A stretch of 64,000 nt of DNA from Cyanobacterium sp. Dongsha4 (GTDB taxonomy: Bacteria; Cyanobacteriota; Cyanobacteriia; Cyanobacteriales; Cyanobacteriaceae): positions 124,001 to 188,000 of the forward strand of contig NZ_CP084098.1 of assembly GCF_036345015.1 (NCBI RefSeq), in the 5' to 3' direction. Position 1 is the stretch's first letter, and each line of letters starts with the position of its first letter. Both the position numbers and the translations under genes were made by a program. The notes under the pieces were generated by a model. That model was not told where the DNA came from and did no database searches. It saw nothing but the letters and a program-made list of their open reading frames with translations. Below are positions 21,748 through 50,421 of this stretch, in pieces.

Positions 21748-22056
21748 ATGAACTCAAATCAACAACCTCAATGGCAAAAAAAATTAGAAGAAATAGAAGC
21801 TGAAATTTCTAATTCTAGTCAAAATCCAATCAATGCTATTAATTCTGAAAAATCTAAAAGTATGTTTTTGCAAGTTAAAAATTGGTTTATCTCTCTTCCT
21901 GCGGTTGGAAAAATCGTCGTTGGTTTATTCGGATTTGCAGTGACAATTTCTTTATTAAAAGCTGTTTTTTCTCTTGTTCAATTAGCTATTAGTTTAGCAT
22001 TTTTAAGTGTTATTGTTTACTTTATTTATCAATTTTTTATTAAATCTAAATCCTAA
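21748..22056 (+). CDS. Small membrane protein next to flotillin
   Basis: 102 aa. A soluble, Glu/Gln/Asn-rich N-half (~45 residues) is followed by two hydrophobic helices (VGKIVVGLFGFAVTISLLKA and VQLAISLAFLSVIVYFIYQF) and a short basic end (KSKS). I do not recognise the family. It lies 187 bp after the flotillin gene on the same strand and could be part of the same unit. Confidence 0.65.
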   Translation: MNSNQQPQWQKKLEEIEAEISNSSQNPINAINSEKSKSMFLQVKNWFISLPAVGKIVVGLFGFAVTISLLKAVFSLVQLAISLAFLSVIVYFIYQFFIKSKS

Positions 22057-22821
22057 AAGAATATAGTTTTTTGATAAAATTAATTATAACTCAGTTCAGA
22101 AATTCACAAAAATACATTTTAGTTGATTTTCTTGTTTTCAATTTTTTATGATTAATCTATCAGTTTAGGAAATTAATTTTTATCAGCAAGGAAATTAAAC
22201 TCTTGGCTCTATTACCTCTTGTTGTGTAAATTATTAGTTTAGGTAGCGGATTTAGGAAACCCCTCTGTATCTCCAAGGCTGTTTCATTCTAAAATTTTCT
22301 GGTTAAGGCAGGAAATGGGGAATAGGCACTCTTGCAATAGTTTTTAATGGTTTATGGTTATAAATTGATAATCTCAACATTTTTAACTACTTCTTAATCC
22401 TCAAAGCTCTAAAACGCTATATTCTTTTACTGGCAATAGTTTTAGCGTTTTTGTATTTCTACTTTGAAACAGCCTTGCTCTGTATCTCCCCTTAAAAAGG
22501 GAGAAGGGGAAAAGAAAACTATTAAATAATAATTTATGAACTTTTAGTTTTTATTCTACTATAAACACTATTAAATTAATTAAATTAATGCTATAGAAAT
22601 TATTTTCTATTAATTTATTATCACCACACTCTGAAGAGTCAAAATCTTTAATTAAGCTATTACTTAATACCATAACAAGAGTTTTTTTGTTAATATTTAT
22701 TAGTTTTAACAATTGAAATTTTTGACAATAAAAATATATTGATACTGTAAAATTTTTACAATTTCCATCTACTAAAACCTGCCTAAATCTGAGATTTTTA
22801 TGCTGAACTGAGGTTGATTTT
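22057..22821. other. Long intergenic region containing MITE copy 1
   Basis: 765 bp, AT-rich, without coding capacity. It holds the 204-bp MITE (22274-22477), its flanking 11-bp duplication and the host repeat CTTAAAAAGGGAGAAGGGG (~22491-22509). The last 350 bp are AT-rich; near 22785-22815 is a CTGAACTGAGGTTGA segment related to other dispersed repeats. Confidence 0.65.
22274..22477. mobile_element. 204-bp MITE, copy 1
   Basis: Non-coding element with perfect 13-bp terminal inverted repeats (CAAGGCTGTTTCA / TGAAACAGCCTTG), flanked by an 11-bp direct repeat CTCTGTATCTC at 22263-22273 and 22478-22488. A copy of equal length at 50182-50385 differs at only about four positions. Inside is a hairpin AAAACGCT...AGCGTTTT. 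An 11-bp duplication resembles that of some IS4-group elements (family knowledge), but no transposase parent is in the window. Confidence 0.88.
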
Positions 22822-25338: not shown

Positions 25339-25632
25339 GGGCAAAAGTTTTTAACTGACACTAACCCCAACACCCTAATACCCACCTGAGTTTGGAGTTC
25401 GGAGTTCGGAGTTCGGAGTTCGGAGTTAAAAGTAATAATTATTGACAAAAAAGCTGAATAAATTGATTTTAAATGAGTTTTTCCTAAATTTAATAATTTT
25501 TTATTCCAAAATTGGCTCGATGATAACTCGAGGGCGCTTTATTTTTCGATACTTTTTTCATCGAACTCAGGTAATAACCCAATCCTCTGACACCTGCAAC
25601 CTGAAACCTGAAACCTTTTTCATAATTCCTAA
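25339..25632 (+). repeat. Large dispersed repeat, copy A (inverted partner at 29645-29912)
   Basis: Starts GGGCAAAAGTTTTTAACTGACAC and ends CATAATTCCTAA. It is nearly identical to the reverse complement of 29645-29912. It contains a GGAGTTC heptamer array (25394-25427) that is shorter in copy B, a HIP-free AT-rich core, an ACTCGAG-containing segment, and CCTGAAACCTGAAACC at the end. No ORF worth annotating. Confidence 0.88.
25394..25427 (+). repeat. GGAGTTC heptamer tandem array
   Basis: Four complete GGAGTTC units and a fifth lacking its last base, in register. The equivalent place in copy B has about two units. This is short tandem repeat (STRR)-like sequence. Confidence 0.85.
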
Positions 25633-29644: not shown

Positions 29645-29912
29645 GAATTAGGAGTTATGAAAGAGGTTTCAGGTTGCAGGTGTCAGAGGACTGGGTTATT
29701 ACCTGAGTTCGATGAAAAAAGTATCGAAAAATAAAGCGCCCTCGAGTTATCATCGAGCCAATTTTGGAATAAAAAATTATTAAATTTAGGAAAAACTCAT
29801 TTAAAATCAATTTATTCAGCTTTTTTGTCAATAATTGTTACTTTTAAATCCGAACTCCGAACTCAGGTGGGTATTAGGGTGTTGGGGTTAGTGTCAATTA
29901 AAAACTTTTGCC
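29645..29912 (-). repeat. Large dispersed repeat, copy B (inverted partner of 25339-25632)
   Basis: Reverse-complement match to copy A over nearly its full length. Differences are a shorter heptamer array, one fewer CTGAAAC unit and a few substitutions. It lies about 80 bp upstream of the ABC ATPase start. Confidence 0.88.
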
Positions 29913-50076: not shown

Positions 50077-50181
50077 CTTATATGGCAATCCTAATCTTAA
50101 CCTCAGTTTCAAACTAGAATTTTAGGTAAAAGTCGGCAACAAGCAAAGTTAAAAAAGCAAGAGACAAGCCCCTTGTGTCTC

Positions 50182-50385
50182 CAGGGCTGTTTCATTCTAA
50201 AATTTTCTGGTTAAGGCAGGGAATGGGGAATAGGCACTCTTGCAATAGTTTTTAATGGTTTATGGTTATAAATTGATAATCTCAACATTTTTAACTACTT
50301 CTTAGTCCTCAAAGCTCTAAAACGCTATATTCTTTTACTGGCAATAGTTTTAGCGTTTTTGTATTTCTACTTTGAAACAGCCCTG
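50182..50385. mobile_element. 204-bp MITE, copy 2
   Basis: Same element as 22274-22477: same length, TIRs CAGGGCTGTTTCA / TGAAACAGCCCTG, and only about four substitutions. Flanks are CCTTGTGTCTC (50171-50181) and CCCTGTGTCTC (50386-50396), an 11-bp duplication with one mismatch. Confidence 0.88.
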
Positions 50386-50421
50386 CCCTGTGTCTCGCCT
50401 TTTAAGGGAAGAAGAGCAAAA

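Follow-up and report, generated by a model that had tools for sequence, protein, structure and literature searches.

Two 204-bp sequences in the window (the whole stretch of 64,000 nucleotides analysed from Cyanobacterium sp. Dongsha4) are very probably copies of a MITE whose ends are those of an ISPlr1-like insertion sequence (IS) of the ISAs1 family. The assignment draws on comparisons of sequence: i) the size of the family in the genome; ii) its terminal inverted repeats (TIRs) and target duplications; iii) the ends that it has in common with ISAs1 elements; iv) a relic with the same ends and a broken transposase; v) related empty sites and the absence of both copies from a sister species; vi) a preference for C/G runs at the insertion site. 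Thus an orphan-looking repeat family is tied to a known insertion sequence group and, for annotation, an explanation is provided for 40 or more repeats in the genome.

The two copies and their family in the genome

Copy 1, delimited by its sequence, its genome matches and its TIRs, occupies 22274..22477 (+ strand), and copy 2 occupies 50182..50385 (+ strand) in the same orientation; both have the 204-bp form and differ by four substitutions (element positions 3, 40, 124 and 202). The 13-bp TIRs match perfectly: CAAGGCTGTTTCA in copy 1 (left at 22274..22286 on the + strand, right at 22465..22477 on the - strand) and CAGGGCTGTTTCA in copy 2. Both copies are intergenic, and no transposase gene lies in them: among open reading frames of at least 20 aa overlapping the elements, the longest (38 aa) touches only the left edge of copy 1 and the others reach at most 28 aa. 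In the length of the elements, their few substitutions, their TIRs and the lack of a gene, the preliminary description, made from the window alone, was borne out. It had also placed 11-bp direct repeats beside both copies. At copy 1 the duplication CTCTGTATCTC (22263..22273 and 22478..22488, no strand) is exact, while at copy 2 the 11-bp left repeat CCTTGTGTCTC (50171..50181) and the right repeat CCCTGTGTCTC (50386..50396; neither with a strand) agree at 10 of 11 positions.

We searched the whole genome (4.32 Mb in five contigs, with the window inside the 4.25-Mb contig) with the 204-bp sequence, as the preliminary description had proposed. At least 62 matches were obtained (from the best 40 of 113 candidate stretches), which represent at least 40 distinct places: 32 matched over an unbroken 141 bp or more, and eight shorter fragments (places were counted from 42 of the 62 matches; the remaining 20 are left ends of copies that had been counted). 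The count for the TIR pattern with up to one mismatch exceeded chance, at 79 occurrences in the genome versus three for the reversed-pattern control. The talk of two copies was therefore correct for the window and understated for the genome, because only two of the places fall in the window.

From 59 loci of this genome, 31 elements could be delimited at both ends. Counted among them are a relic of 777 bp, a rearranged place of 622 bp (L089) and L084, which belongs to a second subfamily. Of the 31, 25 are flanked by a target duplication of 10-13 bp whose two copies differ at one position or none (10, 11, 12 and 13 bp in 4, 14, 6 and 1 elements respectively, 11 bp being commonest); it is exact in 16 of the 25 and carries one mismatch in nine. 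The six elements with no passing duplication include the 777-bp relic and one second-subfamily member. Nearest neighbours among 25 copies diverge by 0-4.5%; given this, the nine mismatched duplications and the failure to find an intact parent in the genome, the recent movement proposed earlier is borne out only in part. The window elements are ordinary, well-preserved MITEs of one genomic family. A different interior between the same TIRs marks a second MITE subfamily of ~200 bp, recognised by eye at L077, L083, L084, L087 and L089, and from its other end at L080, L085 and L086.

The target of copy 1 is itself repeated. The right part of an intergenic GC-rich repeat hit by copy 1, CCCTTAAAAAGGGAGAAGGGG, lies at 22489..22509 and has uninterrupted relatives elsewhere in the genome: a pattern of this repeat spanning the insertion point matched 45 times (22 of them exactly; the 45 include the right flank of copy 1), and its control matched nowhere. 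Ten of these loci were read, and three (L198, L200 and L204) extend into a hairpin arm. In the sister species G001, which is 94-95% identical across the stretches queried, neither window copy is present at its locus. Because the spacers there have diverged in other respects as well, the two loci show absence of the element rather than a clean single-copy empty site; this is the outcome of the sister comparison proposed in the preliminary description. Together with the many copies that have duplications of their own, the related uninterrupted targets and the absence at both loci in G001 uphold the earlier view of a non-autonomous transposable element. A separate MITE bearing these TIRs occupies a GC-rich target in G001 (L226), upstream of a relative of the gene at 21748-22056 of the window; this element is absent from the window.

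Beyond this genome, at least 13 of 59 related genomes had some match to the element (up to 13 candidates per genome). Among the matches listed, the best came from another genus of the family and covered the whole element at 86% identity; G001 had partial matches only. No copy was found in plasmids and phages by blastn, nor in viral contigs and named genomes by an exact 28-base core pattern, both in collections from which records near the window may have been left out.

Another way to account for such repeats is that the host keeps them for a function (e.g., as terminator, promoter or small RNA) and not as mobile elements. The intergenic position of both window copies, the recurrence at 40 or more places and the folding of copy 1 would suit this: as single-stranded DNA, copy 1 (the one copy folded) did better than 200 shuffles (z -4.1), a strength due largely to its TIRs. 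On the other hand, no terminator-like site was found around copy 1, none of the seven promoter-like sites around it lies within the element, and an Rfam scan of the whole window returned one tRNA and no other match. The internal hairpin noted earlier is present in copy 1 (AAAACGCTA / TAGCGTTTT, 22411..22451, + strand; stem arms 22411-22419 with 22443-22451) but is not conserved in the family: across the 25 members examined, the stem is intact in four, has the same single mismatch in 17 and differs otherwise in four. A role as terminator or structured RNA was rejected on these grounds, and, with a target duplication of its own at 25 of the 31 delimited elements, we consider retention for any host function very improbable.

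Ends in common with ISAs1 elements and ISPlr1

A search for insertion sequences with the same ends, also proposed in the preliminary description, succeeded in part. In this genome it returned the 777-bp relic (C1:2370205-2370981), which is bounded by these TIRs and holds a broken transposase whose coding remnant matches the NCBIfam model transpos_ISAs1 at 3.9e-48, far above the cut-off; its Pfam match is DDE_Tnp_1 (PF01609) only, the N-terminal part being missing. The genome yielded no intact parent: among the TIR-pattern matches, no pair lies 1.0-1.7 kb apart, and a protein search with the relic gave one stretch of 38 residues and three intact ISAs1 elements whose ends are different. A parent scan of named genomes gave one weak match. 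The exact parent was not found, because the relic has no recognisable target duplication and is at most ~50% identical to the full-length transposases of other genomes. The 38-residue stretch (L101, G000:C1:2706758-2706871; 53% identical to the relic transposase, E 2.5e-6) lies ~30 bp from the MITE copy L002.

Relatives of the relic transposase at 1e-20 or better occur in at least 95 of 388 genomes of the order, this genome included (up to seven candidates per genome). We read 69 loci of other genomes, selected as matches to the relic protein. At 49 of them, TIR pairs with up to two mismatches bound 1.16-1.56 kb, and the exact left TIR is present in 40 of the 49; the other 20 loci have no such pair. 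Since the query was of ISAs1 type, elements of other families with these ends in those genomes would be missed. Three transposases from such same-ended elements matched ISAs1 (NF033564) at 2e-79 to 2e-92 (267-310 bits), and the two that were scanned in Pfam carry both PF13808 and PF01609.

These matches bear on the parent named in the preliminary description, an IS4-like element, which had been deduced from the 11-bp duplications. Duplications of 10-13 bp, as found here, fall within the range of IS4, and the DDE_Tnp_1 domain carried by the ISAs1 transposases is common to IS4; the ISAs1 range is 8-10 bp. Nevertheless, the sole coding remnant found between these ends in the genome is of ISAs1 type, and the IS4 model reached only 22-24 bits (cut-off 115) for two of the three same-ended transposases, was not listed for the third and was not listed for the relic. 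The loci from other genomes cannot alone exclude IS4 elements with these ends, given their ISAs1-type query. A further point against IS4 is that ISPlr1, whose ends are identical, is assigned to the ISAs1 family in the text available from PMC9366434. On these transposase scans, and within the limit set by the ISAs1-type query, we abandon the IS4 parent as extremely improbable.

In the part of PMC4766695 available, ISPlr1 of Planktothrix rubescens is described with inverted repeats CAGGGCTGTTTCA / TGAAACAGCCCTG, a length of 1423 bp, 10-bp duplications and insertions in REP-like palindromic repeats, and its activity is called likely. The window elements resemble it in their 13-bp ends (the same in copy 2, one base off in copy 1), in duplications of ~10 bp and in insertion in GC-rich repeats. 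They differ in that ISPlr1 is autonomous, with a 1092-bp transposase gene in its 1423 bp, whereas they are 204 bp long and gene-less; moreover, the duplications of the window family are mostly 11 bp and its sites do not exceed the displaced control in palindromy. Elements of 1423 bp encoding 363 aa in the genome G134, one of them with the published duplication CCCGTGCACG, look like ISPlr1 itself.

The mobiliser might instead be resident. Three intact ISAs1-family IS of this genome (L070, L071 and L072; ~1214 bp, 380 aa, ends CAGGGCAAACGCATACT of the CAGGGCAAACG type) are present in full, belong to the right family and have 10-bp duplications in three of three cases (by eye), all of which would allow them to mobilise the MITE. 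But their ends agree with the MITE TIR in the first six bases only, their transposase is 32% identical to the relic, and their three target sites, judged by eye, are not of the CCCC..GGGG kind, which makes them an unlikely source. L073-L075 are further fragments of the CAGGGCAAACGCATACT-ended element, and L076 shows a weak match to PF13808, broken and under the family cut-off, and fails to align with the other ISAs1 elements of the genome.

An ISPlr1-like source thus remains the favoured one. A full-length element would make an ISAs1-type DDE transposase recognising CAGGGCTGTTTCA ends, and this enzyme would mobilise the short element in trans. The element would be joined at a staggered cut of ~11 bp, often between the C/G runs of GC-rich repeats, and such insertion would leave the target duplications. 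Mobilisation in trans by an ISPlr1-like transposase is what we infer. Since the search of this genome turned up no intact parent, the source has probably been lost from it and the MITE family is probably now dormant.

Several systems are comparable. The MITEs of Anabaena sp. 90 (PMC3542288) and the cyanobacterial MITE Nezha, which appears in the reference list of PMC10969869, are likewise small, TIR-bounded and multi-copy, as far as the available portions of these sources describe them. For Anabaena sp. 90, the same portion of PMC3542288 states that its MITEs have no similarity to the IS ends of that genome, whereas the present family can be matched to an IS group by its ends. A literature search on MITEs with ISPlr1 ends found no such report.

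Target-site preference

Among the 49 IS copies, 33, spread over 14 genomes, had a duplication that could be read; it was 9-13 bp long with 10 bp commonest (15 of 33). Palindromy was scored as the number of complementary pairs out of 12 about the centre of the joined target, taking the best of three half-base offsets. The IS copies scored 6.82 pairs, versus 3.83 at displaced centres and 3.98 in shuffles, and exceeded all 2000 trials of each control. At the best of five offsets, seven or more pairs were present in 21 of the 33 sites, in 11 of the 14 genomes; sites that share a genome, of IS and MITE alike, are not independent, and the best protein matches supplied the IS loci. In G134 a palindrome is at the centre in just one of seven sites, and a GTGCACG- or GTGCC-type palindrome adjoins five of the other six (by eye). 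Insertion between C or G runs was seen, as a raw count, at 28 of the 33 IS sites. Judged by their target sequences, the IS copies examined tend to insert in REP-like palindromes, and the palindrome preference of the ISPlr1 group would thereby extend to 11 of the 14 genomes rather than one genus.

The same score was low for the MITE. Its 25 copies gave 3.88 pairs, versus 3.74 at displaced centres (a proportion of 0.33 of 2000 trials was as high) and 3.43 in shuffles (0.022 of trials as high), and seven or more pairs were found at five of the 25 sites. Palindromic targeting by the MITE was accordingly set aside, its score being not above the displaced control and slightly above the shuffles. On the other hand, C/G runs occur at both edges of eight of the 25 MITE sites, versus 0.37% of 15,284 intergenic window positions (0.40% of all window positions), an excess with a binomial probability of 3e-14 if the sites are treated as independent. 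Judging from these flanks, the MITEs retain the C/G-run preference. A preference for GC-rich palindromic repeats is also known for REP-targeting IS (Tobes and Pareja 2006, as cited in the available part of PMC9366434); the present case resembles these and differs in that the elements are of ISAs1 type, that 11 of the 14 genomes have palindromic sites and that the MITE shows the preference only in part.

A second MITE nested in the first

A second MITE of ~175 bp (MITE B), unrelated to the first family, is nested inside 20 of the 32 long matches of that family. Its ends are ACCTGAGTTCG / CGAACTCAGGT, with a variable number of GAGTTCG units, and its position in the outer element is identical in all 13 nested copies among the 20 loci read. 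The target duplications of the outer element differ among nested copies, and thus the outer element and MITE B moved as one unit, which provides a clear example of a MITE carried within another MITE and spread together with it. A MITE B query gave at least 40 long matches (the best 40 of 326 candidates); 22 of those listed are at the first family and 18 elsewhere, two of the 18 being in the window.

The short form equals the nested form minus MITE B, with both 7-bp flank units retained (by eye). In a small tree, read without an outgroup row, three nested copies with a common junction base (L016-L018) fall among short forms. The structure of the short form fits a loss of MITE B, although the repeat of this tract varies among relatives as well.

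A broader model can be offered only tentatively and is less probable than not by some distance: ISPlr1-type ISAs1 transposases across the cyanobacterial order may recognise folded (cruciform or hairpin) GC-rich palindromes and cut symmetrically about the centre; the MITE family may have inherited a relaxed form of this recognition; and, with the second MITE riding inside as one transposing unit, the same repeats may be remodelled by nested mobile layers.

The two standalone copies of MITE B in the window, one with ACCTGAGTTCG-type ends at 25384..25572 (+ strand) and the other at 29701..29868 (- strand), are inverted copies within a longer near-identical repeat of ~270 bp and differ in their numbers of GAGTTCG units.
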